Source: Burkholderiales bacterium (GTDB taxonomy: Bacteria; Pseudomonadota; Gammaproteobacteria; Burkholderiales; Burkholderiaceae_E). From it: a DNA stretch of 36,478 bases. Position 1 is the stretch's first letter; every line of letters starts with the position of its first letter. The stretch lies in assembly GCA_005798775.1 (NCBI GenBank), contig SYIM01000282.1, positions 1 through 36,478 of the forward strand, written 5' to 3'. The notes under the pieces are model-generated. The model was given only the letters and a program-made list of their open reading frames with translations, did no database searches and was not told the DNA's origin. The translations under genes were made by a program, and so were the position numbers. Shown here one piece after another: positions 4,375 to 20,518 of the stretch.

Positions 4375-4455
4375 CGTTCTTCCTTTTCCTGAATGTAGGA
4401 AAGTAAATTCCGCGGTGCTCAGCCGCACCTGACATGATTTTTACAGGACGTTCCG

Positions 4456-6640: not shown

Positions 6641-7356
6641 CAGTGTCTCCTTTCAGACGATCCTAGATAAGCGGCGGCGATCCGTGGATCGCCAAGTATG
6701 TCGGCAGCAGGCCCGGACATGGCCAGCCGCCCCAATTCAAGCACATAGGCGCGTTGCGCGCACCGAAGCGCCATCTGAGTATTCTGTTCGACCAGCAGCA
6801 TGCTGAGTCCGTCGCGATTCAATTCGCCGATCAGATCGAAGAGCGCACGCACCAGGATCGGGCTCAACCCGAGCGATGGCTCATCGAGCATCATAAGCTT
6901 CGGGCGCGACAGAAGCGCCCGACCAATGGCAAGCATCTGCTGCTCACCGCCCGACAGGACGGAAGCGAACATGTCGCGGCGGCGGGCGAGGTTTGGAAAA
7001 CGCTGATAGATGTGATCGATTTCCCTGGCGGGGTCGTCACGCCGCGAGTAGGCACCCATCAGGAGATTGTCGTGCACCGTGAGGCTGGTAAAGATCTGTC
7101 GCCCCTCGGGCACCAGCACCAGGCCGCGAGACACGCGGTTCGCTGCAGACGACCCGGCGACCGGCTCACCATTGAAGAGGATCGATCCACTCGCTGGGCG
7201 AACCAGCCCCTGAACTGCCCGCAGGAGCGAACTCTTGCCCGCACCGTTTGCACCCAGTACGGTCACGATCTCACCGGCCTCGACTTTGAGGTCAAGGCCG
7301 CGTACGGCCCGGGTGGTTCCGTAAGTGACATCGAGCGCACGAACCTCAAGCAGCAT
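6640..7356 (-). CDS. livF: High-affinity branched-chain amino acid-type ABC transporter ATPase LivF
   Basis: ABC ATPase of 238 aa, the normal LivF length. Walker A is GANGAGKS, the signature is LSGGEQQ, and Walker B is LMMLDEPS followed by the LGLSP segment typical of LivF; the switch histidine position reads VEQN, also as in LivF. It energises the LivHM permease on the cytoplasmic face. The start at 7356 is chosen because GGGAG lies about 7 nt upstream and the protein then begins MLLEVRALD; longer in-frame starts add a non-homologous N-terminus. It overlaps livG by 11 bp and the binding protein by 1 bp. Confidence 0.95.
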   Translation of the reverse strand: MLLEVRALDVTYGTTRAVRGLDLKVEAGEIVTVLGANGAGKSSLLRAVQGLVRPASGSILFNGEPVAGSSAANRVSRGLVLVPEGRQIFTSLTVHDNLLMGAYSRRDDPAREIDHIYQRFPNLARRRDMFASVLSGGEQQMLAIGRALLSRPKLMMLDEPSLGLSPILVRALFDLIGELNRDGLSMLLVEQNTQMALRCAQRAYVLELGRLAMSGPAADILGDPRIAAAYLGSSERRH

Positions 7357-8098
7357 CGGCGGCTCCCGCGCTACTGCCCAGATAGGCCTCGAGTACCGCC
7401 GGGTCACGGCGTACGCCCTCGTTGTCGCCGTCGTAAATTTTCTGTCCGAAGTTGAGCACCACCACGTGATTACAAAAGCTGTGCACAAAGGGCATGTCGT
7501 GCTCCACCACCAAAATGGTGACCCCGCGCGCAGACACCCGTTCCAGGAGAGTGCGGAGTTCGTCAGTCTCAGCGCCGTTCAGCCCGGCCGCTGGCTCATC
7601 GAGCAGAAGTAGCGAGGGATCGGCAAGAAGCGCGCGCACCACCTCGATACGCTTCTGAATGCCATATGGCAATTCGGACACCACCATGCCGTCATAGGCC
7701 TTCAGTCCCGCATCGGCAAGCGCTGTCCGGGCCTTTTCTGTGGCCCGCCGCCCCCATGCCGGGGCAAGCGGGTGACGCCGATGGTGTTCGCCCAGCATCA
7801 CGTTTTCAACCGCAGACAGATGCGGCATCAGCCGGATGTTCTGAAACGAGCGTGCCAGACCCAAGCCGATCCGCCGAGCCGCGGAAACCCCTGCCGAATC
7901 GATGCCACCGATCAGGATACGCCCGGAATCAGGGGTATAGACGCCGCTGATCAGATTGAAGACGGTGGTCTTACCTGCGCCATTCGGACCGATGAGCGCG
8001 GTACGACTGCCGCCTGGCACGGAAAAGCTCAGGCCCTCAATCACCTGAAGGCCGCCAAAGGCCTTACTGACCGACTCCAGTCTGAGCGCGTCAGTCAC
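7346..8098 (-). CDS. livG: High-affinity branched-chain amino acid-type ABC transporter ATPase LivG
   Basis: ABC ATPase of 250 aa. Walker A is GPNGAGKT, then the FNLISGVY segment and the long LivG-type insert with SFQNIRLMPHLS. The signature position reads LPYGIQKR rather than LSGGQ, which is the usual LivG variant, and Walker B is LLLLDEPAAGLN. The start is GTG at 8098, eight bases before the end of livM (GTGACTGA overlap), with GGAGGGG 6 nt upstream. It forms the ATPase heterodimer with LivF. Confidence 0.95.
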   Translation of the reverse strand: MTDALRLESVSKAFGGLQVIEGLSFSVPGGSRTALIGPNGAGKTTVFNLISGVYTPDSGRILIGGIDSAGVSAARRIGLGLARSFQNIRLMPHLSAVENVMLGEHHRRHPLAPAWGRRATEKARTALADAGLKAYDGMVVSELPYGIQKRIEVVRALLADPSLLLLDEPAAGLNGAETDELRTLLERVSARGVTILVVEHDMPFVHSFCNHVVVLNFGQKIYDGDNEGVRRDPAVLEAYLGSSAGAADAA

Positions 8099-8969
8099 GC
8101 TGAGCCCCTCCGGTCGAGCGACCCAGCAGACGCTCGATCATCGTTCGGGTGATAAGCCCCTGCGGCCGCCAGATCATGAGGAGTACCACCGCGACACCAA
8201 ACACGATGAACCGTCCCGATTCGAGCGGCTTGAGAGAAGGGTCCAGCGACGCAAGATAGCGGAGCAGTTCCGGCACGAGCGTAAAGAACAGCGCACCCGA
8301 AACCGGGCCCCACACCGTCTGGGTGCCGCCCATCAGCACATAAAGCAGCACGTAAATGCTGAACAGCACGCCGGTTCCCTGCACGTCAATAAAGTTGAAC
8401 TGGTGTACCAGCAGTGCACCGCCCACCCCACCGACAAACCCGCCCAGCGTGAACGCCGCCACCTGTGTGCCACGCAGGTCGACACCGAACAGGCGGGCAA
8501 CGCTTTCATCGTCATGAATGGCGCGGACCGACAGCCCGAAGCGGGTGGACATGAGCCATGCCGCGCCGGCAACCACTGCAATCGTGACCGCCACCACCGC
8601 ACCCAGCCCAGGCCACGCGATGACCGACAACCCTGCCGCGCCCCCCAGGCCCGGCCAGTTGAGCAGCACCCCTCCCACCACCTCTGCAAACGCGAACGTG
8701 GCAAGCACCATGTAGACCCCGCGTGTGCGAAGAATGGGAAACGACACTGCAAACGCAATCGACGCGGCAAGCAAACCGCCCGCGGGCACCGCCCCCCAGA
8801 GCGGCAGGCCGTATAGCGACGTGAGCGCGCCCGCTGTGTAGGCGCCCAGCAGCACAAAGCCCGCAGAACCGAGATTCAGGAGCCCCGCCGCCGCTGGCAG
8901 ATAGACCGAGTAGGCGATGATGATGTTGATGGAGAGGACGGCGATCAGCCCCTCGAGGTAGCCGCTCAT
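8091..8969 (-). CDS. livM: Branched-chain amino acid-type ABC transporter permease LivM
   Basis: Inner-membrane permease of 292 aa with many hydrophobic segments (for example around residues 5-30, 60-80, 100-140, 210-230 and 260-280). The segments FSIYVLLYVLMGG and the coupling region RAIHDDESVARLFGVD are typical of LivM. The ATG shares a base with the stop of livH (TGATG) and the 3' end overlaps livG by 8 bp, so the unit is tightly coupled. The length, about 290 aa, fits the short LivM form lacking the N-terminal extension seen in enterobacteria. Confidence 0.94.
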   Translation of the reverse strand: MSGYLEGLIAVLSINIIIAYSVYLPAAAGLLNLGSAGFVLLGAYTAGALTSLYGLPLWGAVPAGGLLAASIAFAVSFPILRTRGVYMVLATFAFAEVVGGVLLNWPGLGGAAGLSVIAWPGLGAVVAVTIAVVAGAAWLMSTRFGLSVRAIHDDESVARLFGVDLRGTQVAAFTLGGFVGGVGGALLVHQFNFIDVQGTGVLFSIYVLLYVLMGGTQTVWGPVSGALFFTLVPELLRYLASLDPSLKPLESGRFIVFGVAVVLLMIWRPQGLITRTMIERLLGRSTGGAQRD

Positions 8970-9892
8970 CAGAATTTGCCTTTGCCGATTCGCGACGCAC
9001 CGAACAAGCCTGACGGCCTGAACACCAGGATGACCAGCAGCAGCCCCCAGACCGGAATTTTTTCGATCTCGGCGCCGAAAAAGCTGATGGCTAGTACCTT
9101 CACCAAGCCCACCAGAAGGCCGCCTGCGATCGCCCCCCAGACATTACCCAGCCCGCCCAATACCATTGCGGCAATGGCATCGGTCGCAATAGCGTCGCCC
9201 ATGAACGGCGTGACCGTTCCGTAGCTCACCGCATAGAGAATGCCCGCGAGTGCGGACAAGATACCGGTGATCACAAACACCAGCGGTACCAGTCGTTGAA
9301 CCTCGACGCCCATCAGGGTTGCAGCATCTGGATTTTCGGCGATCGCACGAAGCGCCCGCCCGATTCGGCTGCGCGACAGCAGCGTCTGCAGGGCCGCTAC
9401 CAGGGCAATGGCGAGTGCCAGCGCGAAAAGTTGCGGCAGCCCAATGACAAATCCTGCGACGGTCAGATCGGTGTTGCGAAAGGGCAGTTCGAATCGCTGC
9501 GGGTCCCCCCCCCAGAGCGTCATTGCAAGGTGCTCGAACACGATCAGAAACCCAAGCGAACTCACCAGAGGCAACGCGTGCTCGGTCGCGTCGCCGTAGC
9601 GGGTTTTCATATAGCGGTAGGTGAAGCGCTCGATGAGTAGCGACGCCAATACCGCCGCCAGTATGCCGAGCGCGAGCGCCGGCAGCCAATGCAGCCCAAG
9701 GGCGAGCGGATGGGCGCCGGGGGTAAGCAGCGCCCATCCCAGCATCGCCGCGACCATGAAGAGCGCCGGGATGGTGAAGTTGAGAAAATTGAGCATACCG
9801 ATCGTGAGCGTGAATGCCACCGCTACGAAGGCCAGAATCCCACCCAGCATCAGCCCGTTGATCAGTTGCTGGATCAGCAGCATGCGCGCCAC
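8969..9892 (-). CDS. livH: Branched-chain amino acid-type ABC transporter permease LivH
   Basis: Inner-membrane permease of 307 aa. The N-terminus QLINGLMLGGILAFVAVAFTLTIGMLN and the coupling segment LRAIAENPDAATLMGVEV are LivH signatures, followed by GLGNVWGAIAGGLLVGL near the C-terminus. Two starts are possible: GTG at 9892 and ATG at 9883; neither has a strong ribosome site and the ATG variant would begin MLLIQQLI, so the real N-terminus may be three residues shorter. It starts 25 bp after the LLM monooxygenase gene and is the first transport gene of the unit. Confidence 0.94.
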   Translation of the reverse strand: MARMLLIQQLINGLMLGGILAFVAVAFTLTIGMLNFLNFTIPALFMVAAMLGWALLTPGAHPLALGLHWLPALALGILAAVLASLLIERFTYRYMKTRYGDATEHALPLVSSLGFLIVFEHLAMTLWGGDPQRFELPFRNTDLTVAGFVIGLPQLFALALAIALVAALQTLLSRSRIGRALRAIAENPDAATLMGVEVQRLVPLVFVITGILSALAGILYAVSYGTVTPFMGDAIATDAIAAMVLGGLGNVWGAIAGGLLVGLVKVLAISFFGAEIEKIPVWGLLLVILVFRPSGLFGASRIGKGKF

Positions 9893-9917: not shown

Positions 9918-11102
9918 TCAGTGAGGCACCGCTTGCGATGAGCGCGCAGCGGCGAGCCGACGGTTGACCGCTGGCATCACCTCGGTTGCGAGCAGCGCCA
10001 TCGAGCGCATCCAACCCTCTCGCCAACCCGGGTCGGCATAGTCATAGCCGAGTTGCAGGAGGGTACCGAAACCACCAGTGATTTCATGATGCTCGAGGAT
10101 CAGCTCGACCACCTGGTCCGGGGTCCCGACGTACCACGAGCGGTGTTCGATCATCGAGGCCGCGTCGCCCGTGGCCTCCGGCGGCGCCGCTGGCCGTTTG
10201 AAGAGATTCAGGGAACCTGAGCGTCCGATCGTTTTCATGAAGTGACGATCCCAGAACTGCCCCATGCAGCCGTCACGCGCAGCCCGCCGCGCCTCAGCGG
10301 CTGATTCGGCGACATAGATGTCACGGATGTGCCGCCAGCGCGCGCGTGACGGCGTACGACCCGACTGTGCGGCCCCCTCGCAGATCCCCTGCCAGTGGAG
10401 CGACATGTGCTCGGGTGCCACATGAAACGACAGCGGAATGTAGCCGTGCTCCCCCGCAAGCCGCATGGAGGCTGAGCGCGGCATGAACCCGGCCAGTGCA
10501 ACTCGCGGCCGGGGATCGCCATAAGGCTCAATGTGCCAGACATACCGATCGTCGTAGGCTGGCCGATGCACCTGCCAGAACTGGCCGTCGAACCGATCGG
10601 GCCCCCCGGGCTTCCAGCAATCAAAAATGATGGCCAGCGCCTCGCTCGCCATGGCGCTGTGCTGATCGGCACGCGGGTCGACGCCGTAAAGCTGGAAATC
10701 TGTCCCGGTACCGCCCGACCCGAAGCCGAACATCAGACGGCCTCGCGCAAGATGGTCTAGCTGCGCGAGTTCCAGCGCAAGCCTGACCGGGTGCGAGTTG
10801 TACAGCACTTCCACACCAGTGCCGAGGCGGATCCGCGAAGTGTGCCCCAGCGCCCGAGCGATCACCTGCTGCGGCGAGGCGATCGGCTCCCAGGGCGTGG
10901 TGAAATGCTGTCCGATCCAGGCTTCGGAATATCCCAGGCGGTCGGCCGCGCAAAGCACATCATGATTCCAGTCGAGCGCATCGGCAAGCGCTCGCCTTGG
11001 CAGGCTGGCAGGCATGAGAAAAAGGCCGAGCGCGATACCCCCCTGGGTACCGTCAAGGACTGAGTCGTTCGATAGGCGTTGGGTAGCGGGGCCGAAATTC
11101 AT
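9918..11102 (-). CDS. LLM-class flavin-dependent oxidoreductase
   Basis: Luciferase-like monooxygenase of 394 aa with the TIM-barrel signatures GLFLMP at the N-terminus, EAWIGQHF, SRIRLGTGVEVL and RLMFGFGSGG. Enzymes of this class use reduced FMN supplied by a separate reductase, or F420, to hydroxylate, desulfonate or cleave substrates; no flavin reductase gene lies nearby. The ATG at 11102 has no Shine-Dalgarno, because the 24 bases before it are a C9 tract and a T6 tract on the coding strand. The first 20 residues look poorly conserved, so a start nearer GIALGLFL by a rare codon is possible. It heads the livHMGF unit, suggesting that the transported compound is its substrate. Confidence 0.92.
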   Translation of the reverse strand: MNFGPATQRLSNDSVLDGTQGGIALGLFLMPASLPRRALADALDWNHDVLCAADRLGYSEAWIGQHFTTPWEPIASPQQVIARALGHTSRIRLGTGVEVLYNSHPVRLALELAQLDHLARGRLMFGFGSGGTGTDFQLYGVDPRADQHSAMASEALAIIFDCWKPGGPDRFDGQFWQVHRPAYDDRYVWHIEPYGDPRPRVALAGFMPRSASMRLAGEHGYIPLSFHVAPEHMSLHWQGICEGAAQSGRTPSRARWRHIRDIYVAESAAEARRAARDGCMGQFWDRHFMKTIGRSGSLNLFKRPAAPPEATGDAASMIEHRSWYVGTPDQVVELILEHHEITGGFGTLLQLGYDYADPGWREGWMRSMALLATEVMPAVNRRLAAARSSQAVPH

Positions 11103-11103
11103 T

Positions 11104-11267: not shown

Positions 11268-11297
11268 TTGAAATGGAACTCTTCGTGCAGAATGAAT
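11268..11297 (+). promoter_or_regulatory. Weak promoter candidate before the NMT1-like binding protein
   Basis: TTGAAA (5/6 to the -35 consensus) is followed after about 17-18 bp by AATGAAT, a poor -10. It is placed about 75 bp before the GTG start. Only the -35 is convincing. Confidence 0.25.
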
Positions 11298-11373
11298 GCT
11301 TGAGGATCTCGCCGGCCAGCGTTTCATGCTCCGCCAGCGTCCGGTTCTGCAAATCTTACTCAAGGAGGCACCC

Positions 11374-12399
11374 GTGACACTATCCCGCCGAATTTTCGCC
11401 AGCCTGACCGCCCTTGGCTGCGCAGCCATCACCGCAGGTTCACTTTTCGCTGCGGCGCCTGCGACCGCCCAGGGTAACCCGCGCGAACTCAGCGTGATCG
11501 TGTTTCCTGGCGGCTTCAACTGGCCCATCTGGGTCGCGCAGGAAAAGGGCTTCTTTGCCCGGCATGGCGTGAAGGTGAATACCATTGACACGCCCAACTC
11601 ACGCTTTCAACTCACTGGAATGATCGAGGGGAAGTTCGACATCGCGATGACCGCGATTGACAATCTGATCGCCTACCGCGAAGGCCAGGGAGGAATCGAA
11701 GCGGATGCCAGCGAGCTGATCGCGGTGATGGGGGCCGACAACGGCTTCCTGCGCCTCACCAGCGTGCCCGAAGTTCGCAGCCTCGCTGAGTTGAAAGGCA
11801 AACAGTTGTCGGTCGACGCGCTCACCACCGGCTACGCCTTCGTTCTGCTTGAAATCTTGGCACGAAACGGCCTGGTGCTCGACCGCGACTACACCACAGT
11901 CGGGGCGGGCGGGGTGCTGCAGCGGTATCAATCACTGCTGAAAAAAGAGCATGCCGCCACCATGCTGATTTCGCCGTTCGAGGTCGTGGCGAAGACTCAG
12001 GGCTTCAACGTGCTGGCCGATGCTGACGCGGCGCTTGGCGACTATCAGGGGCTGGTGGCGGGCGTTCGAAAAACCTGGGCCACGCAAAACGCCCGCGACC
12101 TGGTAGGTTTCATTCGCGGCTATCGCGAGGCACTTAACTGGCTTTACGACCCGACCAACAAACAGCCCGCTATCGATTTGTTCGTCGGCAAGGTCAAGGG
12201 CGCCACCGCGCAAAGCGCGCTCACCTCGTATGACGTGCTCCTCCATCCCAGAACCGGCTTCACGCGCGATGCGAAGATCAGCGAAGCCGGCACGCGCACC
12301 GTCATTCAGCTGCGAGAGAAATTCGGCAAACCCATCAAGAAAATGCAGGGGCTTGCCGCCTACTACGACCCCACGTGGTACACCGATGCCAGCCGCTGA
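11374..12399 (+). CDS. ABC transporter substrate-binding protein, NMT1/SsuA-like
   Basis: Periplasmic receptor of 341 aa. The signal peptide runs from SRRIFASLTALGCAAITAG to ATAQG. The mature part has the NMT1/THI5 features FPGGFNWPIWVAQEKGFFARHGVKV and LKGKQLSVDAL. Relatives bind sulfonates, nitrate, pyrimidines, riboflavin-like or aromatic molecules. The start is GTG at 11374 because a perfect AAGGAGG (11362-11368) lies 5 nt before it; a longer in-frame ATG reading at 11296 has no such support. No ssuB/ssuC-type ATPase or permease is present, so this receptor is an orphan here. The class II aldolase follows after 11 bp, implying co-transcription and a shared substrate (inference). Confidence 0.92.
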   Translation: MTLSRRIFASLTALGCAAITAGSLFAAAPATAQGNPRELSVIVFPGGFNWPIWVAQEKGFFARHGVKVNTIDTPNSRFQLTGMIEGKFDIAMTAIDNLIAYREGQGGIEADASELIAVMGADNGFLRLTSVPEVRSLAELKGKQLSVDALTTGYAFVLLEILARNGLVLDRDYTTVGAGGVLQRYQSLLKKEHAATMLISPFEVVAKTQGFNVLADADAALGDYQGLVAGVRKTWATQNARDLVGFIRGYREALNWLYDPTNKQPAIDLFVGKVKGATAQSALTSYDVLLHPRTGFTRDAKISEAGTRTVIQLREKFGKPIKKMQGLAAYYDPTWYTDASR

Positions 12400-12410
12400 G
12401 ATCTTCGCCC

Positions 12411-13124
12411 ATGAGCAATAGCCTTTCTGCCCTGCTTGACGATCTGGTCACCGCCAACCGGATCCTGGCGGGCCTCGGCATTGTTGACGGCTTTGGCCAT
12501 ATCAGCGTTCGTCACCCTGACCGCTCCGACCGCTTCCTGCTGTCGCGCTCGCTTGCACCCGAACTGGTCACGAGAGACGACATCATGGCGTTTGAGCTCG
12601 ATGGCACGCCGGTGGCGGGTGACCTGCGCAAGCCCTACCTCGAGCGTTTCATCCACGGCGAGATTCTCCGCAAGCGCCCCGATGTGAACGCCGTGGTGCA
12701 CAGCCACGCGCCGTCGGTCGTACCGTTTTCAAGCTCGTCGGCGCGACTGCGTCCGATCTGCCACATGGGCAGTTTTCTGCGAAACGGGGTATCGGTCTTT
12801 GAAATCCGTGAGCGCTTCGGCGCCACCGACATGCTGATCCGTAACGTCGAGCAGGGCGCGGCGCTCGCCGATGTGCTGGCCGGGGACACCGTGGTCCTGA
12901 TGCGCGGTCATGGCTTCTGCAGCGTCGGCCAGACCATTCCGATCGCGGTATTTCGCGCGGTCTACACCCAGAACAATGCTGAACTTCAGAGCCGCACCAT
13001 GACGCTTGGTGGAGAGGTGACTTATCTGGACGATGACGAGGCCGCGCTATCGGAAGCCACCAACCGAGCGGTGATTGATCGCCCGTGGGGGCTCTGGAAG
13101 GCGCGGTTCGCGCCCACTGGCTGA
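12411..13124 (+). CDS. Class II aldolase/adducin family protein
   Basis: Cytoplasmic zinc-dependent aldolase-fold protein of 237 aa. The metal-binding histidines appear in VVHSHAPSV (HxH) and in MRGHGFCSVG, and GHISVRHPD near the N-terminus is the substrate-phosphate or carboxylate loop of the family. Members include fuculose-phosphate aldolase and decarboxylases or oxygenase-like enzymes acting on hydroxy-aromatic or hydroxy-keto acids. The C-terminal WGLWKARF segment resembles catabolic members rather than fuculose aldolase (judgement). The start at 12411 directly follows the receptor gene by 11 bp. Confidence 0.88.
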   Translation: MSNSLSALLDDLVTANRILAGLGIVDGFGHISVRHPDRSDRFLLSRSLAPELVTRDDIMAFELDGTPVAGDLRKPYLERFIHGEILRKRPDVNAVVHSHAPSVVPFSSSSARLRPICHMGSFLRNGVSVFEIRERFGATDMLIRNVEQGAALADVLAGDTVVLMRGHGFCSVGQTIPIAVFRAVYTQNNAELQSRTMTLGGEVTYLDDDEAALSEATNRAVIDRPWGLWKARFAPTG

Positions 13125-13157
13125 GAGGACGCGCAGCGTCTGCGTTTGACGCTCCTC
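13125..13157 (+). terminator. Hairpin after the class II aldolase
   Basis: GAGGA, one bulged C and GCG pair with CGC and TCCTC, starting immediately after the aldolase stop; an internal GACGC/GCGTC alternative also exists. It is not followed by a T-run. Confidence 0.35.
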
Positions 13158-13210
13158 ACAGCTTGCTCAGGCGGTTTCCCTGAAGATGCCTTAGTGTTCA
13201 GGACACGACG

Positions 13211-13951
13211 ATGGCCACTACAACCGGATCGCAAAATGCCTCGGCTCGCCCGTCTGCCGGCCGCGTGCTGGTCACTGGTTTCGAACCGTTTGACGGACAT
13301 CTGCTCAACGTTTCCTGGGAGGTCGCCCGCGCTCTGGATGGAAAGTTGATCGCCAGCGACCCAGCGTCCCGCTTGTTTCAGGTGATTTCCGCGCAGGTGC
13401 CCTGTCGATTCGGACGCTGCATTGATGAGATCAATCGCCTCATCGATACGATTGCGCCTGAACTTGTCATTAGTCTCGGTCAGGCGGAAGGACGGGCCGA
13501 CATCACGATTGAGCGCGTCGCAATCAACGTGCGCGATGCGCGGATTGCCGACAACGACGGCCACCAGCCCGTTGATGAACCAGTGAGCCCAAACGGCCCC
13601 TACGCCTATCCAAGCGGACTGCCGCTCCGGGCAATGCTTCGCTCGCTACAGGCTGACGGCCATCCGGTTGCTCTCTCAAACAGCGCTGGCACCTTTGTCT
13701 GCAATGATCTTTTCTACGGTTTGATGCATCGACTGAGTCACAGCCGCGTTCGCTGCGGTTTCATCCATCTGCCCATCCTCCCCGTGCAACGTCGAAGCGA
13801 GCGCGAGCGTAGCGCCGACCGCGACGACGCCCCGCGCAGCTTCAGCGCGCAAACCCCAACACTACCGCTCGAGGTCCAGGTCGCGACTCTGGAGGCCGCG
13901 ATTGCCTGCGCTCTGGCCCAACCCCTGCTCTCGCAGGAGAAGTCGTCATGA
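13211..13951 (+). CDS. pcp: Pyroglutamyl-peptidase I-like cysteine hydrolase
   Basis: C15-family cysteine peptidase fold, 246 aa. All three catalytic residues are visible: E93 in GQAEGR, C164 in AGTFVCNDLFY and H186 in GFIHLP, and the N-terminus VLVTGFEPFDGH is the family signature. Classical members remove N-terminal pyroglutamate, i.e. hydrolyse an amide next to a lactam ring, in the cytoplasm. The protein is about 30 residues longer than the usual 215 aa, with a 16-residue N-terminal extension and a charged arginine/serine/aspartate insert after the histidine. Its last 4 bp overlap the isomerase-like gene (ATGA), so it may act in the same pathway on an amide intermediate rather than in peptide turnover. 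AGGA lies 7 nt before the ATG. Confidence 0.9.
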   Translation: MATTTGSQNASARPSAGRVLVTGFEPFDGHLLNVSWEVARALDGKLIASDPASRLFQVISAQVPCRFGRCIDEINRLIDTIAPELVISLGQAEGRADITIERVAINVRDARIADNDGHQPVDEPVSPNGPYAYPSGLPLRAMLRSLQADGHPVALSNSAGTFVCNDLFYGLMHRLSHSRVRCGFIHLPILPVQRRSERERSADRDDAPRSFSAQTPTLPLEVQVATLEAAIACALAQPLLSQEKSS

Positions 13952-14712
13952 GCGTGCAGTACGCACCGAAAGGCCTGATCGGCCTGCTCACGCCCCAGGC
14001 CAACACCACTGCGGAGATCGAGTTCGCTGCACTGATGCCGCGCGGCGTTGAGCCGCTGGTCGCGCGCATGACGAGTATGCAATCCACGCTGGAGAGCCGG
14101 CTGATCGAATACTTCGAGCGGCTGGACGACACCATCGCCCAGTTTGCCAATGCGCCGATCGTTGCGGTGGCTGCCGCCTGCACGGGCTCGTCGTACCTCA
14201 TCGGCCCCGAACGCGAGGATCAGCTCTTCAACGGCCTCTCAACCCGGTTCGGACGACCAGTGACCAGTGCGGGGCGCTCGGTCGTCGGAGCCTGCGAGGT
14301 CCTGTCAGCGCAGCGGATCGCGCTGCTGTCGCCCTACTCCGAGAGCCTCACCGCGGAAAGCGTCAAGTACTGGCAGGCCCGCGGGCTCGAGGTGGTCGAA
14401 GTCATCCGGGTTGGATCGGAGGCAACTGCATTTCATCCTATTTACGCCATTCGGTCCGATACGACCCGCGTTGCGCTGCGATCGCTCACCACTGACCGCG
14501 CGCAGGCGATCGTCGCGCTCGGAACAGGTATGCCGTCGCTCGCCACCGTGCTGGAGCATCCTCAGTGGCGCGGTGCGCCTGTATTGTCCTGCATGCTTGC
14601 GCTCGCCTGGAATGCTGTTCGGCTGGCGCAGGGCGCATCCGCCCAAGCGGGCCCCCTTCTTGACGTGATCTCAGGAAAGGGCTGGGGAGCGCGATTTCGC
14701 GCAAGGTTCTGA
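13948..14712 (+). CDS. Maleate isomerase / arylmalonate decarboxylase family (Asp/Glu racemase superfamily) protein
   Basis: 254 aa protein of the Asp/Glu racemase superfamily. The two cysteines used by maleate cis-trans isomerase and racemases are present: C78 in AAACTGSS and C215 in VLSCMLALAW; the N-terminus LIGLLTPQANTTAE is typical of the maleate isomerase branch. Alternatives are arylmalonate decarboxylase-like or hydantoin racemase-like enzymes. In nicotinate and related pathways NicE isomerises maleate to fumarate, and this gene would fit that last step. It starts in the ATGA overlap of the pcp-like gene and is the end of that unit, convergent with the FAD monooxygenase 37 bp away. 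Confidence 0.88.
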   Translation: MSVQYAPKGLIGLLTPQANTTAEIEFAALMPRGVEPLVARMTSMQSTLESRLIEYFERLDDTIAQFANAPIVAVAAACTGSSYLIGPEREDQLFNGLSTRFGRPVTSAGRSVVGACEVLSAQRIALLSPYSESLTAESVKYWQARGLEVVEVIRVGSEATAFHPIYAIRSDTTRVALRSLTTDRAQAIVALGTGMPSLATVLEHPQWRGAPVLSCMLALAWNAVRLAQGASAQAGPLLDVISGKGWGARFRARF

Positions 14713-14749
14713 ACTGGCAGCACGTCTGGGGGCGACCGGCGGGCGCGCT

Positions 14750-15949
14750 TCAGCCTAGCGATTTTGAGCGGCGCAGACCATCGATCATCGACGTGCGGAG
14801 CAGATGCGCGCGCGCCCGCGCAGGGTCGGCAGCAACCGCCTGCAGATCCGCCAGCATGCGGCGACGGTCCTCGAGCGCGGACTCCCACATGCGGGCGCGG
14901 TTACCGTCAGCCTGGCCGATGATGTCATCCCTCATGACCGGTAGCCTGCGCGCCTGATAGCGGGCCAGCATGCTCTCAGGCCGGGCACCCTCGGCAATAT
15001 CGATCAGCGACTCAGCGAGTTCGAATACGTCGTGAATGCCGCCGTTCATCCCCATCCCCCCTTTGGGATGATTGAGGTGCGCGGCGTCGCCCGCGATCGC
15101 GATTCGGCCCTTCACCCAGTGCGAAGCAAGCCGCTGGTGGACGCGATACGGCCGCACTTCGCCAATGGGCGCAGCGCCTGCAGCCGGCGTGATCCGTCCC
15201 AGACGCTCGGCGATTCGCTCTGGCTGCATGAGCGCTTCCGCCGACTCATCATCATGAGGATGGAGACTCACCCGCCAGACGTCGGCCAGTCGCAGAAGGC
15301 TGTAGGTGCCGTCGGGCGCCCAGACATAGTTGATACCCGATAGACCGGGCAGGTGCTCCTCAAACGGAAAGGTGGTGGTGACAAGCACCGTGGTCTCGGG
15401 GTACACGGTGCCTTCAAATTCGGCGCCGATCGCCTCGCGCACCACGCTTCGCGAACCATCGCAACCGACGAGAAACGCGCTCTGCACGCGGTGGAGACTG
15501 CCTTGTGCATCGCGCCAGTCAAGCCAGACCCGCTCGTCATCCTGACCGATGCGTTCCACCGGCGCGCCCCGAACGACCGAGCCGGGTGCGTGGCGCTCAA
15601 GCCAGGCCTCCAGGGTGTTCACCAACACCGACTGATCGCACTGCAGACGCCACGGATGGGCGGTGATGTCAGCGATGGTCGCAAGGTCAAATTCCGCGCG
15701 CTCGCCGGTTTCATGAAGCCTGATCTGCCAGGTGGGAGTTTTGCGACCTGCCGTATGAAGCGCCGCACCGATTCCGTCCTCATCGAGCAGATCCAGCGTG
15801 GGAGGATGAAAGGTGGAACTGCGCAGCATCGGCTCAAGTCGGGGCTCACGTTCGAAAATCCGAACTGCATGACCTGCTCGAACGAGCCGCCAGGCGAGCA
15901 CCAATCCCACCGGGCCGGCACCGACGATCAAAGTGAAAGCGTCATTCAT
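14750..15949 (-). CDS. FAD-dependent aromatic monooxygenase (PHBH/UbiH type)
   Basis: Single-component flavoprotein hydroxylase of 399 aa. GAGPVGL (GxGxxG) lies at the N-terminus, the DG segment is CDGSRSVVREAIG near the middle, and the second FAD motif is IAGDAAHLNHPKGGMGMNGGIHD. Members hydroxylate or oxidatively decarboxylate phenolic or pyridine acids with NAD(P)H and O2; 6-hydroxynicotinate 3-monooxygenase and salicylate hydroxylase belong to the same group. The start at 15949 is chosen because the fold begins there; the open frame continues 82 codons upstream without homology. Its promoter region is shared with the tautomerase and Mo-enzyme genes on the other strand (99 bp). Confidence 0.92.
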   Translation of the reverse strand: MNDAFTLIVGAGPVGLVLAWRLVRAGHAVRIFEREPRLEPMLRSSTFHPPTLDLLDEDGIGAALHTAGRKTPTWQIRLHETGERAEFDLATIADITAHPWRLQCDQSVLVNTLEAWLERHAPGSVVRGAPVERIGQDDERVWLDWRDAQGSLHRVQSAFLVGCDGSRSVVREAIGAEFEGTVYPETTVLVTTTFPFEEHLPGLSGINYVWAPDGTYSLLRLADVWRVSLHPHDDESAEALMQPERIAERLGRITPAAGAAPIGEVRPYRVHQRLASHWVKGRIAIAGDAAHLNHPKGGMGMNGGIHDVFELAESLIDIAEGARPESMLARYQARRLPVMRDDIIGQADGNRARMWESALEDRRRMLADLQAVAADPARARAHLLRTSMIDGLRRSKSLG

Positions 15950-16048
15950 CGAAGTCTGCGCAAAAAGGCGTAAATTGGAACACCTGATGGTAGCGCAGCC
16001 TGGCCCTCTCACGGCATGCTGGGGCTTTAGATTTCTCGGAGATATGCC

Positions 16049-16261
16049 ATGCCTGCCCTGCGAGTCGACCTCTTTGCCGGTCGCACCACTGAACAGAAAC
16101 GGGCGCTTGCGCAAGCGCTCACCGAAGCCTGCGCGAAGACACTGGGCGTCTCGCCCGGCAGCGTTGACATCATCTTCACCGACGTTGAACGTCATGACTG
16201 GGCCACCGCCGGCCGACTGTGGTCAGACGAAACGAAACCGGCCCCGCCGCCCGCAGGCTGA
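16049..16261 (+). CDS. 4-oxalocrotonate tautomerase family protein
   Basis: Small tautomerase of 70 aa. The sequence starts MPALRV, so after methionine removal the N-terminal proline can act as the catalytic base, and RTTEQKRALAQALTEA plus the SVDIIFTDVERHDW strand-loop match the family. These enzymes move double bonds in 2-hydroxymuconate-type products of ring cleavage or, in other branches, dehalogenate. GGAGA (16038-16042) lies 6 nt before the ATG. It precedes the 2Fe-2S subunit gene by 51 bp and probably shares its transcript. Confidence 0.88.
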   Translation: MPALRVDLFAGRTTEQKRALAQALTEACAKTLGVSPGSVDIIFTDVERHDWATAGRLWSDETKPAPPPAG

Positions 16262-16312
16262 CCCTGCGCCTGCACTCACGCAGCCGAACCGATCCACTAC
16301 AAGGAGACATTC

Positions 16313-16792
16313 GTGCCCGACTACACGCTCAATATCGACGGCACCCGTCACACCGTGACCGCGCAAGCCGACGAGCCACTGCTCTACGTGCTCATCGACC
16401 GTCTTAAGCTGAAGGGACCCAAATTTGGCTGTGGCGTTGCGCAGTGCGGCACTTGCACGGTCCTGGTCGACGGCGCACCGATGCGCTCCTGCGTGATCAG
16501 CGCTGCTTCGGTCACCGGTCGGGCAATTCGCACCCTGGACGGGCTGGCGCAAGGCGGCAAAGCCCATCCGGTGCAGCAGGCGTTCATCGATCAGCAGGCG
16601 GCCCAGTGCGGCTATTGCGCCAATGGCTGGGTCATGAGTACCGTTGCGTTGCTCGAGAAAAACCCACGGGCGAGCGACGCTGAAATCCGCGAAGCCATGT
16701 CCGGAGTCCTGTGCCGCTGCGGCACGCAGATCGCCATTCACCGAGCCATCCACCAGGCGGCCCGCACCATGGCCACCGGTTCGAAATCCTGA
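16313..16792 (+). CDS. (2Fe-2S)-binding subunit of a periplasmic-type molybdenum hydroxylase (IorA/NicA-like)
   Basis: Electron-transfer subunit of the xanthine dehydrogenase family, 159 aa. The plant-type cluster is ligated by C40, C45, C48 and C60, and the second cluster by C99, C102, C134 and C136; the CRCGTQ ending is typical of the IorA/NicA branch rather than CRCTGY of the CoxS branch. The start is GTG at 16313 with AAGGAG 6 nt before it. The protein has no signal peptide; co-export with the Tat-targeted large subunit is the expected route. The large subunit starts 13 bp after the stop, and no FAD subunit accompanies this pair. Confidence 0.93.
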   Translation: MPDYTLNIDGTRHTVTAQADEPLLYVLIDRLKLKGPKFGCGVAQCGTCTVLVDGAPMRSCVISAASVTGRAIRTLDGLAQGGKAHPVQQAFIDQQAAQCGYCANGWVMSTVALLEKNPRASDAEIREAMSGVLCRCGTQIAIHRAIHQAARTMATGSKS

Positions 16793-16805
16793 AGGAGCAA
16801 CGCGC

Positions 16806-19124
16806 ATGAACGAAATCACCGTATCGCGCCGCGCCTTTCTACAGTCCTCGGGCGCGCTGGTTATTCAGGTCGGTGTGGGCGCAGGGCTCGCCACCGGCGC
16901 CCTGGATGCTGCCGCGCAGGCCGCCTCACCTCGAATCGTTGGCCCTCACCCGAGTTCGCTGGACACCTGGATCCGGATCGCAGCCGACGGTATCGTCACG
17001 GTCAACTCCGGCAAGATGGACTGCGGACAGGGGCTCGATGTTGCCTACGCACAAATCGTCGCCGAAGAGCTCGACGTTCCGTTCGAAAGCGTTCAGGTCA
17101 CGCTCGGCGATACCCGGCTCGCCCCCAATCAGGGTGGCGGCAGCGGCAGCACCGGGCTTCGCATGGGCGCCAACCCGCTCAGAAACGCGGCTGCCGAGGC
17201 GCGACGTGTGCTCGTCGCCTCGGCCGCCCAGCAGCTCGGTGTTACCGCATCCTCCCTCACAGTCCGAGATGGCCGGATCTTCATCACCGCAGAGCCGGCA
17301 CGCGGGGTCACCTATACGCAGCTCGTGGGCGGAAAGAACTTCAACACCCAGCTCAAGTGGAATAACGCGATCGGTAACGGGATGAATGCCACGGGCGAAG
17401 CCAAGCCGAAAGATCGTTCCGAGTATCGCATTGTCGGCCGGGAGTTCAAGCGCCGCGACATTGCCGACAAGATCATTCCCACTGAGCACTACACCGCACA
17501 CATCCGGCCAGCCGGACTGCTTCATGCTCGCGCCGTCAGGCCACCGGTAGCCGGCGCACAACCGATCTCGGTCGATGGCGCATCGATCGCCGCGATCGCT
17601 GGTGCGAGGCACTTCGTGAAGGGTGGCTTTATAGCCGTAGTTGCTGAATCCGAGTGGGATGCAGTTCGCGCCGCGCGCCTGCTAAAGGTGCAGTGGAGCG
17701 ACGTGCGCCCTCCCTTTACGGGCGGCGACACGGGCGTTTTCAACTACATTCGGCAGGCGCAACCCACGGCCTCCAATGCGATACCGATGTTTGGCGGCAA
17801 AAAGGCCTTTGATCCCGCGCCCACGCTTGCCGCCCTGGCACAGTCTGCGCGCGTGATCGAGGCCGACTACGAATGCGCCTTCCAGTCGCACGCCAGGATC
17901 GCTCCCTCGTGCGGAGTGGCCGACGTACGAGGCGACAAGGCCGAAATCTGGGCCGACACCCAGAAGCCCCACTTCCTGCGCGACGGTATCGCCAAATTCC
18001 TTGGCCTCGCGCCAGAGAACGTGCAGGTAAAGTGGATGCATGGCGCGGGCTCCTATGGGCGAAGCGATGCAGACGAAGCACCTTATGAAGCGGCGCTTCT
18101 GTCACAGGCCTTGGGCCGACCCGTTCGCATGCAATGGTCGCGCGAGGAGGGAACCGCATGGGATCCCAAGGCACCGGCTGGCATCATCAGCATGAAGGCC
18201 GGTCTGGATAAGGACGGAAAATTAACGGGCTGGTATTTCCGTGCAAAGGGTTTCAACGGCTGGGACGTTCGCTTCACGGGCGAAAGCCCTGAGCACGTAC
18301 TGGTCGGGATGCTCACTGGTCACCCGAAGTGGAACGCCTACAACTTCAACGTTCCCGAGGAAACCTATCAGTTCCCCAACCATGTGCACTGGTGGGAGAC
18401 GGTACCCCCTTATTTGCAGGAGGCCTCACCGATGCGAACCGCGCATCTGCGCGCGCCCCAGGAACTTCAGACCCGGTTCGGCCAGGAATGTTTCATCGAC
18501 GAGGTTGCGCTCGCCTCGGACGTCGACCCGGTCGAGTTCCGGATCAGGCATCTCAAGGAGCCGCGTGAAATCGACGTCATCCGCGCAGCCGCGAAAGCGA
18601 TCGGCTGGCAGCCGCGAACCGATTCACGCCGGGAGCGCGGATCAGTCATGGTAGGAAGAGGTATTGCGCTTCATTCGGGCTACCAGGCGCATGCAGCCGT
18701 CGCCGTCGAGGTCGAGGTTCACCGCGACACCGGACGAATCTGGCTCAGGCGTGTCGTCATCGGACATGACTGCGGCATGATGGTCAATCCCGCCGGGGTG
18801 CGCGCCGCCCTCGAAGGGCAAATCATGCAGGGCATCAGCCGCTCGCTTTACGAGGAGGTAAGCTTCAACGAGCGCGAGGTCACGAGCGTTGACTGGCGAA
18901 CCTACCCGATCGCCACGCTCGACGACGTGCCGGGACAGGTCGAGATGGTGCTTCTCAACCGGCCCGACAAGCCGATCGGCGGCGCGGGCGAGCCCGCAAT
19001 CGTCTGCTTCCCGGCGGCCATTGCCAACGCAGTGGCCGATGCAACCGGTATCCGCATCCGCGCCTACCCGCTCACGCCGGAGCGCGTCAAGGCTGCGCTT
19101 GCCGGCGCACCACGCACCACCTGA
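16806..19124 (+). CDS. Tat-exported molybdopterin-binding subunit of an IorB/NicB-type hydroxylase
   Basis: Molybdopterin cytosine dinucleotide hydroxylase large subunit, 772 aa. A twin-arginine signal is at the N-terminus (SRRAFLQS followed by a hydrophobic stretch and AAAQAA). The catalytic glutamate is E729 in GGAGEPA, and the GGGSGST and MVNPAGVRAALEGQ segments match the family. Relatives hydroxylate isoquinoline, nicotinate or aldehydes with electrons passed through a c-type cytochrome; none is encoded beside it. The start at 16806 has AAGGAG 7 nt upstream; longer in-frame openings lack homology. A periplasmic ring hydroxylation coupled to respiration is inferred. The exact substrate is unknown. 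Confidence 0.93.
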   Translation: MNEITVSRRAFLQSSGALVIQVGVGAGLATGALDAAAQAASPRIVGPHPSSLDTWIRIAADGIVTVNSGKMDCGQGLDVAYAQIVAEELDVPFESVQVTLGDTRLAPNQGGGSGSTGLRMGANPLRNAAAEARRVLVASAAQQLGVTASSLTVRDGRIFITAEPARGVTYTQLVGGKNFNTQLKWNNAIGNGMNATGEAKPKDRSEYRIVGREFKRRDIADKIIPTEHYTAHIRPAGLLHARAVRPPVAGAQPISVDGASIAAIAGARHFVKGGFIAVVAESEWDAVRAARLLKVQWSDVRPPFTGGDTGVFNYIRQAQPTASNAIPMFGGKKAFDPAPTLAALAQSARVIEADYECAFQSHARIAPSCGVADVRGDKAEIWADTQKPHFLRDGIAKFLGLAPENVQVKWMHGAGSYGRSDADEAPYEAALLSQALGRPVRMQWSREEGTAWDPKAPAGIISMKAGLDKDGKLTGWYFRAKGFNGWDVRFTGESPEHVLVGMLTGHPKWNAYNFNVPEETYQFPNHVHWWETVPPYLQEASPMRTAHLRAPQELQTRFGQECFIDEVALASDVDPVEFRIRHLKEPREIDVIRAAAKAIGWQPRTDSRRERGSVMVGRGIALHSGYQAHAAVAVEVEVHRDTGRIWLRRVVIGHDCGMMVNPAGVRAALEGQIMQGISRSLYEEVSFNEREVTSVDWRTYPIATLDDVPGQVEMVLLNRPDKPIGGAGEPAIVCFPAAIANAVADATGIRIRAYPLTPERVKAALAGAPRTT

Positions 19125-19984: not shown

Positions 19985-20518
19985 CTAGTCCGGATTGCGT
20001 GCGCTCGACCCTGCCCCGCTCATCCGCCCGGCGGCCACTTCCGCCACAGCACTCACAATCGCGTGATAACCCGTGCAGCGGCAGTAATTACCGGAAAGGT
20101 GGTCTCGGATCCGGGCACGATCCGTGGTGGGCGAGCGCTCCAGAAGTTCTGCAGCGCAGAGCAGCATGCCGGGCGTGCAGAACCAGCATTGAAGGGCATT
20201 GTGGCGAACAAAGGCATCCTGCAGGTCGGCAATCTCGCCGCTTGCATCGAGCCCCTCCAACGTGGTGACTTCACAGCCATCGACCTGTACGGCTAGCACC
20301 AGACAGCCGCGAACGATGTCGCCATTGACGCGAACGGTACATGCGCCGCACACACCATGCTCGCAGCCCACATGGGTGGCTTTGAGGTGCAACTCATGGC
20401 GAAGAAAGTCCGCAAGGTGTGTCCGCGGCGATACATGGCGCCGCGTCGCACGACCGTTTACCACGACGCGGACTTCGATCGGCTCATCTGGGGACAACAT
20501 AGGCTGGGCTGAGTTCAT
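19985..20518 (-). CDS. (2Fe-2S)-binding small subunit of a CoxLMS-type molybdenum hydroxylase
   Basis: Small subunit of 177 aa. Plant-type cluster ligands are C52, C57, C60 and C72; the second cluster is C111, C114, C146 and C148 with the CRCTGYH ending of the CoxS/xanthine dehydrogenase group. The ATG at 20518 has AGGA about 6 nt upstream and overlaps the stop of the FAD subunit as ATGA. The complex is cytoplasmic, since no signal peptide is seen in any of its subunits. It is physically separated from its presumed large subunit by the FAD subunit, a VOC and an enolase-family gene. Confidence 0.93.
   Translation of the reverse strand: MNSAQPMLSPDEPIEVRVVVNGRATRRHVSPRTHLADFLRHELHLKATHVGCEHGVCGACTVRVNGDIVRGCLVLAVQVDGCEVTTLEGLDASGEIADLQDAFVRHNALQCWFCTPGMLLCAAELLERSPTTDRARIRDHLSGNYCRCTGYHAIVSAVAEVAAGRMSGAGSSARNPD

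Follow-up and report, generated by a model that had tools for sequence, protein, structure and literature searches.

Results

The stretch of Burkholderiales DNA analysed here, 36,478 nucleotides in all and called the window below, carries the following genes:

2659..3432, + strand, alpha/beta hydrolase, PcaD-like (NCBIfam PcaD 3e-46, below cut-off)
3472..4428, - strand, metallo-beta-lactamase-fold (lactonase-like) hydrolase (Pfam 5e-22)
4456..5367, + strand, PuuE-like (allantoinase/polysaccharide deacetylase type) hydrolase (NCBIfam PuuE 3e-45, below cut-off)
5468..9892, - strand, LivKFGMH-type ABC importer, five genes (Pfam)
9918..11102, - strand, luciferase-like flavin monooxygenase (Pfam 6e-43)
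11296..12399, + strand, NMT1/SsuA-type solute-binding protein (Pfam NMT1 5e-13)
12411..13124, + strand, class II aldolase-fold decarboxylase-like protein, nearest Mlr6791 (PDB 2z7b 8.6e-51)
13211..13951, + strand, diverged Pcp (pyroglutamyl-peptidase) family protein (TIGR00504)
13948..14712, + strand, one-cysteine maleate-isomerase/AMDase-fold enzyme, core gene 2 (Pfam Amdase 1.5e-14)
14750..15949, - strand, FAD-dependent aromatic monooxygenase, PnpA/HspB-like, FAD_binding_3, core gene 1 (Pfam PF01494 1e-56)
16049..16261, + strand, 4-OT family tautomerase (NCBIfam PRK00745, 92.3 bits against a cut-off of 80)
16313..16792, + strand, [2Fe-2S] subunit of an IorA-type Mo hydroxylase (Pfam Fer2, Fer2_2)
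16806..19124, + strand, Mo subunit of an IorB-type Mo hydroxylase, Tat-like signal (Pfam MoCoBD_1/2)

An earlier sequence-only reading had drawn a cluster around 13211–19124. All five reading frames that it named there are intact and match Pfam/NCBIfam models significantly, and the alpha/beta hydrolase that it placed at 2659–3432 has its PcaD match below the cut-off. The genes within its limits are present, but the run continues beyond them, with the order from 2659 to 15949 kept in two of four congeners. The Mo hydroxylase, which it gave as a single span, is there as two genes.

For several of these genes further matches narrow the family. The best NCBIfam models for the metallo-beta-lactamase-fold hydrolase are AidB/YtnP lactonase, below cut-off; the nearest PDB entry to the luciferase-like protein is 3,6-diketocamphane 1,6-monooxygenase (4uwm, 2.8e-41), and the PuuE-like hydrolase matches 3cl6 at 3e-40. 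After 2z7b, the next PDB match of the decarboxylase-like protein is at 1e-11, and it scores 97 bits, under the cut-off of 200, with the NCBIfam model for 3,4-dihydroxyphthalate decarboxylase. We take its nearest relative, Mlr6791, to be a pyridine-dicarboxylate decarboxylase. The tautomerase has, on our reading, Asp at the position of Arg39 of 4-OT, and is transcribed divergently from the monooxygenase. Across its full length the window also encodes a further Mo hydroxylase and a Rieske oxygenase, along with several binding proteins.

A block of 14 genes (genes 03–16, 2659–15949) recurs with its order unchanged in G037 and G036, two of four congeners, at 60–98% protein identity, and the other two are without it. 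The NMT1/SsuA-type protein, the Liv importer, the PcaD-like hydrolase and the PuuE-like hydrolase (98% and 94% identity) are among the genes kept. IorAB (16313–19124) is absent from the block in both G037, where the gap is clean, and G036; the tautomerase is present in G037 and was not found in the G036 stretch. Three of the four congeners have the monooxygenase (92, 84 and 72% identity), and in the fourth nothing matches at 1e-100. The monooxygenase of G038 that comes closest (about 70%) has only a distant Amdase-family gene in its vicinity, at 4 kb and following a second monooxygenase on its downstream side, and in G013, from another genus of the same family, the two core genes are adjacent (54% and 46%). 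Across 83 monooxygenase loci, genes for Pcp, decarboxylase-like and luciferase-like proteins at 35% identity or more accompany the monooxygenase only in the two block-bearing congeners, and in none of 18 loci do decarboxylase-like relatives elsewhere adjoin the core. On these two grounds, the block beyond the core may have been put together locally.

The widely conserved core consists of the FAD monooxygenase (14750–15949) and the maleate-isomerase-like (Amd-like) protein (13948–14712). An Amd-like protein occurs in 64 of 79 related monooxygenase loci, 58 of these at 35% identity or more, and in 41 of the 48 monooxygenase loci that span at least 19 kb, compared with 1 of 24 control loci, which were not taxonomy-matched. 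Of the 55 loci with calls for both core genes, 37 have the two midpoints at most 1.7 kb apart. Further supporting the association, distances within the two families correlate (Mantel r 0.54; top of 999 shuffles, 0.14), and the window and G037 cluster with L061 in both core-gene trees (unrooted; support 0.92 and 0.82). The Allorhizobium plasmid locus L032 combines a Liv importer, the monooxygenase, two Amd-family genes, a PuuE-like gene (55%) and a metallo-hydrolase.

Accessory genes were counted anywhere in 53 loci with both core genes and in 23 with the monooxygenase but no called Amd. LeuC-type hydratases occur in 17 of the former and 1 of the latter, LeuD-type proteins in 10 and 0, PrpB/PEP-mutase-type lyases in 12 and 2, class III CoA transferases in 10 and 2, and isochorismatases in 9 and 1; aldehyde dehydrogenase shows no such excess, being present in 23 of the 53 loci with Amd and 9 of the 23 lacking it. 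Among window genes 01–30 neither LeuCD nor a CoA transferase nor the relatives' PrpB/PEP-mutase-type lyases were seen.

PnpA/HspB-type FAD monooxygenases carry out para/ipso hydroxylation of hydroxy-aromatic compounds. Among 60 of 107 PDB matches to the monooxygenase profile, PnpA (6ain, 7e-85), a para-nitrophenol monooxygenase, ranks first and HspB (7da9, 3e-69) second, with the next at 3.5e-43.

The second core protein has a predicted structure (pLDDT 94) that best matches 4fq5_B (Z 26.9, 2.6 A over 230 residues), followed by 2xed_B (Z 26.8), and this model gives it the Asp/Glu racemase-type fold, near to maleate isomerases of solved structure. Maleate cis-trans isomerases (NicE/Iso/MaiA) require two catalytic cysteines, and the sequence-only reading had credited the window protein with both. 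That proved wrong, because only the first is kept: Cys78, present in 58 of 63 family sequences. The place of the second, which structure titles give as C200 of P. putida Iso and C194 of the Nocardia enzyme, is taken by Gly192-Thr193, and residue 192 is Gly in 61 of the 63 sequences and Cys in 2. The second cysteine meant was perhaps C215, a position with Cys in 33 and Ser in 29 of the 63. The Gly74Cys-Cys188Ser variant of arylmalonate decarboxylase (PDB 3ixl) has the same fold (Z 24.4) and, like the natural family, Cys at the first position and none at the second, but is only 19% identical to the window protein.

The pcp-like assignment at 13211–13951 was borne out, for a diverged form. The protein passes the pyroglutamyl-peptidase model TIGR00504 (218.5 bits against a cut-off of 201.75) and retains in the alignment Glu, Cys and His, which we take to be the Pcp catalytic triad; its stop (13951) overlaps the start of the maleate-isomerase-like gene (13948) by four bases. 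Sites conserved in 10 of 11 other Pcps of the family are altered alike in the three block copies, among them G28 to D, E30 to H and P34 to V, with P134 also differing from 10 of the 11, and an insertion containing RDDAP or REDAP is common to the three. The remaining Pcp, from G038, agrees with the block copies at sites 30, 34 and 99 and carries a comparable insertion, but lacks the block residue at most of the other listed sites; this nearest relative is not part of the block and has a dihydroxy-acid dehydratase and a channel gene as neighbours. It is possible, though we lean against it, that the gene encodes an ordinary pyroglutamyl peptidase that lies here by chance. The score above the cut-off, the kept triad and the position of the G038 relative would agree with this; the overlap with a core gene argues against it, as do the substitutions and insertion common to the block copies, even though G038 has some of these.

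The Mo hydroxylase has the IorAB-type architecture, a [2Fe-2S] subunit (16313–16792) with a Mo subunit (16806–19124) that carries a Tat-like signal; the latter contains SRRAFL, which we take to be a twin-arginine-like motif. The nearest PDB relative of the Mo subunit is the large subunit of an aldehyde dehydrogenase (8gy3, 4.5e-47). The closest IorB copy found (77%) sits in a different cluster, where its neighbours are FAA-hydrolase-family proteins, an alcohol dehydrogenase and an FMO-like oxygenase, and among the 83 monooxygenase loci no gene was called that reaches 35% identity to IorB. With IorAB missing also from the block of two congeners, the earlier choice of this enzyme as the centre of the cluster is not supported. 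Mo hydroxylases are common in N-heteroaromatic breakdown, and some Mo hydroxylase does occur in 7 of the 83 loci, as against none of the 18 decarboxylase-like control loci. In four of the seven (L059, L064, L066 and L069) a two-subunit pair adjoins Amd and the monooxygenase (Fe-S subunit 48–52% and Mo subunit 28% identical to those of the window), and G036 has a three-subunit Mo enzyme after the monooxygenase. On these counts Mo hydroxylases may be occasional accessories, though their presence near the core in seven loci may also mean that they matter more than such a role allows.

Discussion

As proposed earlier, a catabolic cluster is present: a flavin hydroxylase, a maleate-isomerase-fold enzyme, a decarboxylase-like protein and hydrolases fit ring degradation, and no description of the cluster appears among the literature matches listed. 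We consider it rather likely that the locus is a catabolic island and that, at its conserved core, a PnpA/HspB-type FAD monooxygenase works together with a one-cysteine maleate-isomerase-fold enzyme. The cluster probably degrades an aromatic acid, the module serving aromatic-acid and possibly N-heteroaromatic catabolism; for this genus an N-heteroaromatic acid is a plausible substrate.

What the comparison shows is that the block is kept, that the two core genes go together, that the second cysteine is lost and that the block of the congeners has no IorAB; the substrate and all the chemical steps are ones that we infer, as follows. The importers and binding proteins would take up the aromatic acid, the Mlr6791-like enzyme would strip a ring carboxylate, and the monooxygenase would hydroxylate and perhaps open the ring. 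The PuuE-like protein, the metallo-hydrolase, the alpha/beta hydrolase and the diverged Pcp could then cleave a ring-opened amide or lactone, and the Cys78 enzyme could isomerise an (alkyl)maleate-type acid to a usable form or decarboxylate it. The product may leave through alkylmalate-type reactions, as suggested by the LeuCD, CoA transferase and lyase genes that some relatives add, with Mo hydroxylases acting as occasional accessories. Weakening the core reading are the narrow spread of the wider block, which two of the four congeners lack, the Mo hydroxylases near the core in 7 of 83 loci, the use of controls unmatched in taxonomy, the opposite strands of the two core genes in the window, the G038 monooxygenase with only a distant Amdase-family gene, the lack of enrichment of aldehyde dehydrogenase with Amd, and the failure to see LeuCD, CoA transferase or lyases among window genes 01–30.

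The same core might instead act on an oxygen-only aromatic or furan-type acid, with the PuuE-like and Pcp-like genes as unrelated neighbours, which we hold to be rather doubtful. PnpA as the closest solved monooxygenase relative is consistent with such a substrate, as are the 23 and 17 of 53 loci with aldehyde dehydrogenase and LeuC-type hydratase and the mere 9 of 53 with an isochorismatase-type amidase, the sole amidase type counted. However, the second closest relative, HspB, is a pyridine enzyme, the decarboxylase-like gene is nearest Mlr6791, the PuuE-like gene accompanies the core again in L032, and this substrate is given less weight because Mo hydroxylases recur in the seven loci.

That same recurrence lends more weight to a nicotinate-like route, in which IorAB would act first, hydroxylating an N-heteroaromatic acid, other enzymes including the monooxygenase would follow, and a Pcp-like cysteine amidase would stand in for NicF. 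The genes stand side by side, the Tat-like signal and the four-base overlap agree with it, and core-adjacent pairs or a three-subunit enzyme occur in the loci named above. Even so, this IorAB-led variant is poorly supported and, in our judgement, improbable: IorAB is missing from the block in both block-bearing congeners, IorB at 35% or more was not called in the 83 loci, the nearest PDB relative of this Mo subunit is an aldehyde dehydrogenase and its 77% relative sits in another cluster, and the isomerase-like protein is without its second catalytic cysteine. NicB-type Mo subunits of the aerobic nicotinate pathway have cytochrome c domains, whereas in the 772-residue window subunit Pfam finds at E 0.001 only MoCoBD_1 and MoCoBD_2 and no cytochrome domain. 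Neither for nor against the route, PF02073 has no match in the 78.5%-complete genome, the reach of this model for NicX being uncertain. No NicF-type isochorismatase (PF00857) was matched among window genes 01–30, which counts against the route as a whole and leaves the diverged Pcp a possible cysteine amidase in NicF's place. Lastly, it is very unlikely that these are independent genes in a region rich in catabolic genes, as the two strands, the second Mo hydroxylase, Rieske oxygenase and binding proteins, and the failure of Pcp, decarboxylase-like and luciferase-like genes of at least 35% identity to accompany the core beyond the genus might suggest, given the 14-gene order in two congeners and the 64 of 79 monooxygenase loci with Amd.

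Our preferred reading, a catabolic island around the two core genes, bears partial likeness to known systems. In vitamin B6 degradation the Mlr6791 decarboxylase is followed by a FAD ring-opening oxygenase and then an amidohydrolase; the window likewise unites an Mlr6791-nearest gene, a FAD monooxygenase, and lactonase-like and alpha/beta hydrolases in one block, but the best solved relatives of its monooxygenase are PnpA and HspB, and no entry named as the vitamin B6 ring-opening oxygenase is among the 60 of 107 PDB profile matches. For PnpA itself, the genomic partners differ. The nicotine pathway of P. putida S16, with the genes hspB, iso, nfo, hpo and ami (PMC3812094), also joins an HspB-family FAD monooxygenase to a maleate-isomerase-fold enzyme; in contrast, the window's isomerase-fold enzyme is without the second catalytic Cys, and no isochorismatase-family amidase is among window genes 01–30. 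In the Kpi pathway of Arthrobacter IN13 (PMC7356986), a FAD monooxygenase, a feature common to the window, starts 4-hydroxypyridine breakdown and KpiC, a hypothetical amidohydrolase, opens the ring.

More broadly, we tentatively suggest, as a possibility, an undescribed module widespread in Alpha- and Betaproteobacteria, in which a PnpA/HspB-type monooxygenase would open the ring of a (hetero)aromatic acid without any metal-dependent ring-cleaving dioxygenase, the product then being processed towards alkylmalates by a natural maleate isomerase relative of the one-cysteine kind. Comparing relatives takes the Mo enzyme out of the centre of the cluster; the first outline had the wrong enzyme there. 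In the one-cysteine isomerase-fold family the engineered arylmalonate decarboxylase variants have a natural counterpart. If our reading is true, the two-gene core, which dozens of proteobacterial genomes contain, would mark a degradation route for a substrate that the literature found does not name, and would offer a small, testable gene set in cultured strains.

Gene layout and conservation of the block

Every gene named in the sequence-only reading exists at the locus, which comes from a 3.54 Mb metagenome-assembled genome of 78.5% completeness, and to that extent its observation stands. We lean towards a catabolic module centred on the FAD monooxygenase and the adjacent one-cysteine enzyme (Amd), together called the core.

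Genes of the window from the alpha/beta hydrolase to IorB (coordinates, strand, product)
2659-3432, +, alpha/beta hydrolase
3472-4428, -, metallo-hydrolase
4456-5367, +, PuuE-like hydrolase
5468-9892, -, LivKFGMH importer
9918-11102, -, luciferase-like monooxygenase
11296-12399, +, NMT1 binding protein
12411-13124, +, class II aldolase-fold decarboxylase-like protein
13211-13951, +, Pcp-like protein
13948-14712, +, maleate-isomerase-like protein (Amd)
14750-15949, -, FAD monooxygenase
16049-16261, +, 4-OT-family protein
16313-16792, +, IorA-type subunit
16806-19124, +, IorB-type subunit

Further along the window lie a second Mo hydroxylase of the three-subunit CoxS/M/L type (19985-25530), whose subunits are separated by an enolase-superfamily gene (21862-23079), and the alpha and beta subunits of a Rieske ring-hydroxylating oxygenase (26522-28326), the alpha subunit having benzoate 1,2-dioxygenase as its top model with a score below cut-off. 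An iron-containing haem-oxygenase-fold/TENA-like protein (31283-32014) also sits amid catabolic genes. PF02073, a putative model for the ring-opening dioxygenase NicX of the nicotinate pathway, had no match in this 78.5%-complete genome.

Of the four congeners, G037 and G036 keep the gene order that runs from the alpha/beta hydrolase through to the monooxygenase, here the block, at 60-98% protein identity (tblastn). A close PuuE-like gene is missing from both G038 and G039; in G039 the monooxygenase, too, has no match at 1e-100. IorAB is missing from the block of both G037 and G036. In G037 the 4-OT gene directly abuts the intergenic stretch that follows IorB in the window, so the difference is a clean presence or absence of some 2.9 kb carrying IorAB. 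Neither the 4-OT gene nor the next gene, an epimerase, was found in the G036 stretch, where a three-subunit Mo hydroxylase matching 19985-25530 of the window comes directly after the monooxygenase.

Association of the monooxygenase with Amd

Genome contigs were scanned with a monooxygenase profile and the best 80 loci taken; L034 and L035 were excluded from counts as lying on the same contigs as L022 (G037) and L023 (G036). A simple gene caller recovered the monooxygenase in 76 of the 83 loci, and short contigs are frequent among them; per-locus counts are therefore lower bounds. An Amd-like protein was present in 64 of 79 loci (L022, L023, L031 and L032 being left out of this count), in 58 of them at 35% identity or more, and in 41 of the 48 loci of at least 19 kb, versus one of 24 control loci, unmatched for taxonomy, around 18 decarboxylase-like genes and six IorB relatives. 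Where both genes were called, their midpoints lay within 1.7 kb in 37 of 55 loci. Pairwise divergences of the two families are correlated (r 0.54 over 54 sequences, against 0.14 for the best of 999 shuffles); quick trees of both proteins join the window and G037 to a Rubrivivax bin (L061). The Pcp, decarboxylase-like and luciferase-like genes each recur at 35% identity or more in 2/83 loci, both of them congeners.

In another genus of the family (G013) the two core genes are neighbours on a contig of 4.5 kb, at 54% and 46% identity. The monooxygenase of G038 is about 70% identical and is accompanied only by a distant Amdase-family gene, 4 kb off, which lies downstream of a second monooxygenase (41%) and close to a CoA transferase. 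Adjoining the G038 monooxygenase is a 72% relative (L176, 10961-11974) of the tripartite-tricarboxylate binding protein encoded by gene 31 of the window (32069-33040).

Neighbours of the core in relatives

Gene families were made by clustering and counted anywhere in a locus, with one or two representatives of each annotated.

Neighbour families: loci where both core genes were called (n = 53) versus loci where the monooxygenase was present and Amd was not called (n = 23)
HpaE-like aldehyde dehydrogenase, 23/53 versus 9/23
GntR/HutC-type regulator, 22/53 versus 3/23
Tripartite-tricarboxylate binding protein, 21/53 versus 6/23
LeuC-type hydratase, 17/53 versus 1/23
PrpB/PEP-mutase-type lyase, 12/53 versus 2/23
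LeuD-type subunit, 10/53 versus 0/23
Class III CoA transferase, 10/53 versus 2/23
Isochorismatase, 9/53 versus 1/23
SDR, 9/53 versus 3/23
TRAP DctM, 9/53 versus 1/23
HMG-CoA-lyase-like, 5/53 versus 2/23

By these counts the aldehyde dehydrogenase is no commoner with Amd than without. Two loci (L078, L087) share the order regulator (on the opposite strand), binding protein, Amd, monooxygenase, lyase-like gene, CoA transferase, LeuC and LeuD; in L049 the monooxygenase is flanked on one side by the lyase-like gene, CoA transferase, LeuC, LeuD and Amd, and on the other by an SDR, an aldehyde dehydrogenase and a TRAP transporter. From the LeuC, LeuD, CoA transferase and lyase-like neighbours we infer that the core yields an alkylmaleate- or alkylfumarate-like acid in loci of this type. 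The best distant match to the block is an Allorhizobium plasmid locus (L032), which carries a Liv importer, the monooxygenase, an Amd-family gene, a PuuE-like gene, a regulator, an aldehyde dehydrogenase, an SDR, a metallo-hydrolase, a second Amd-family gene, a PEP-mutase-type lyase and an isochorismatase.

A Pfam scan covered 108 of 221 neighbour family representatives, the commonest families having been left out beforehand, and placed two luciferase-like proteins among the 25 commonest of 137 Pfam families. The recurrent families identified in the compact operons L036, L041, L049, L078 and L087, where some single genes were unscanned, suggest, and do not prove, that a ring-cleaving dioxygenase is absent near the core. 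In a setting unlike the other loci, the monooxygenase has as neighbours a methyltransferase-domain protein and a major facilitator transporter in L051 and in eight sphingomonad loci (L050, L052, L054, L055, L056, L058, L065 and L095).

Properties of the encoded enzymes

The sequence-only reading credited Amd with both cysteines. Profile alignments place Cys78 at the first catalytic cysteine and Gly192-Thr193 at the second, and among 63 family members Cys78 is kept in 58, Gly at residue 192 in 61 and Thr193 in all 63; position 215 (C215) holds Cys in 33 and Ser in 29. By our reading of its alignment, the second Amd-family protein in L032 carries both catalytic cysteines. The predicted model (pLDDT 94.2) matches maleate isomerases best (4fq5_B, Z 26.9, 2.6 A, 230 residues; 2xed_B, Z 26.8) and arylmalonate decarboxylases next (3ixl, Z 24.4, 3.3 A, 229 residues). 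Judging by the titles of solved structures, a Nocardia isomerase with its second cysteine replaced carries a covalent succinyl-cysteine, and an arylmalonate decarboxylase has been engineered to the one-cysteine pattern of Amd. These structural matches, the cysteine pattern and the one-cysteine structures suggest that Amd, classed as maleate-isomerase-like only, shares the predicted fold of the maleate isomerases and probably acts through Cys78.

The best solved relatives of the monooxygenase profile are PnpA (7e-85) and HspB (3e-69), with the next at 3.5e-43. A study of P. putida S16 gives 2,5-dihydroxypyridine as the HspB product, which passes on to fumarate via hpo, nfo, ami and iso (PMC3812094).

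For the decarboxylase-like protein the best NCBIfam model is 3,4-dihydroxyphthalate decarboxylase, under its cut-off. Among solved class II aldolase relatives Mlr6791 scores 8.6e-51, the others 1e-11 or weaker; Mlr6791 is a pyridine-dicarboxylate decarboxylase. A 1e-40 search of 300 genomes of the order finds relatives of the gene in 20, one of them the genome of the window; the core genes are missing from all 18 loci inspected, which came from 18 of the remaining 19 genomes.

The Pcp-like protein, whose stop overlaps the Amd start in the window, passes the curated Pcp model and keeps the Glu, Cys and His of the Pcp catalytic triad. Pcp is present in 14 of 74 genomes of the family. At sites conserved in at least 10 of 11 non-block Pcps, the three copies from the block carry shared changes, and they also have in common an insertion containing RDDAP or REDAP, which was not seen in 10 Pcps from other genera of the family. 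The Pcp of G038, outside the block, agrees with the block copies at sites 30, 34 and 99 and has a comparable insertion. The diverged form occurs in four of five genomes of the genus (window; L009, L010, L011). All 124 plasmid Pcp records are below 60% identity and, among the matches listed, are annotated as ordinary Pcp or not at all. Judged from these sequences, a changed substrate is plausible; a role in place of the NicF amidase would be speculative.

Mo hydroxylases and the place of IorAB

Seven genomes among 300 from the order, including that of the window, have an IorB at 1e-150; within the family (74 genomes, E 1e-100) the matches other than the window's IorB itself are 38-42% identical. 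The best other copy in the order (L168, 77-78%) looks intact from its sequence; a stop reported in it lies at the extreme end of the match (open frame to 9642, match to 9633) and does not point to decay. Its neighbours are FAA-hydrolase-family proteins, an FMO-like oxygenase and an alcohol dehydrogenase, and its 16.2 kb contig holds an Amd-family match (28%) but lacks matches to the monooxygenase, Pcp and decarboxylase-like gene of the window. In a plasmid search with five of the window's proteins, the best IorB relative (46%) was in Ancylobacter, with no monooxygenase or Amd match within the 14.6 kb read; a paper on that strain, by its title, concerns 1,4-dioxane.

Apart from the window's genome, six genomes have a close IorB relative (1e-150), and each of them also has the decarboxylase-like family (1e-40), versus 13 of the remaining 293 (Fisher p 3e-8). 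The two genes are not adjacent in the stretches read, and catabolic-rich genomes could explain the co-occurrence.

No IorB at 35% identity or more was called across the 83 monooxygenase loci, and with its absence from both congener blocks this speaks against IorAB as the centre of the module. Some Mo hydroxylase is nevertheless present in seven of these loci, versus none of 18 decarboxylase-like control loci, so that Mo hydroxylases are not wholly absent near the core in relatives and a simple reading of IorAB as unrelated is disfavoured. In L059, L064, L066 and L069, from Limnohabitans and other Burkholderiales bins, a two-subunit enzyme (48-52% to IorA, 28% to IorB) adjoins Amd and the monooxygenase; L023, from G036, carries the three-subunit enzyme, and L039 and L098 have CoxL-like matches (31-34%). 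A Mo hydroxylase is thus an occasional accessory of the core, not a constant part. The earlier interpretation holds in part: a catabolic module, centred on the core, is likely; the nicotinate variant led by IorAB, with a Pcp-like cysteine amidase replacing NicF, is improbable, and it is those seven loci that keep us from rating it lower still.

Implications

In the open-licence literature we found, among the matches listed, no account of the monooxygenase/Amd gene pair, nor the pair in connection with trigonelline-, homarine-, furan- or maleimide-type substrates, all considered as candidates. The module centred on the core is an assembly of known enzyme families, and an N-heteroaromatic substrate is possible in this genus.
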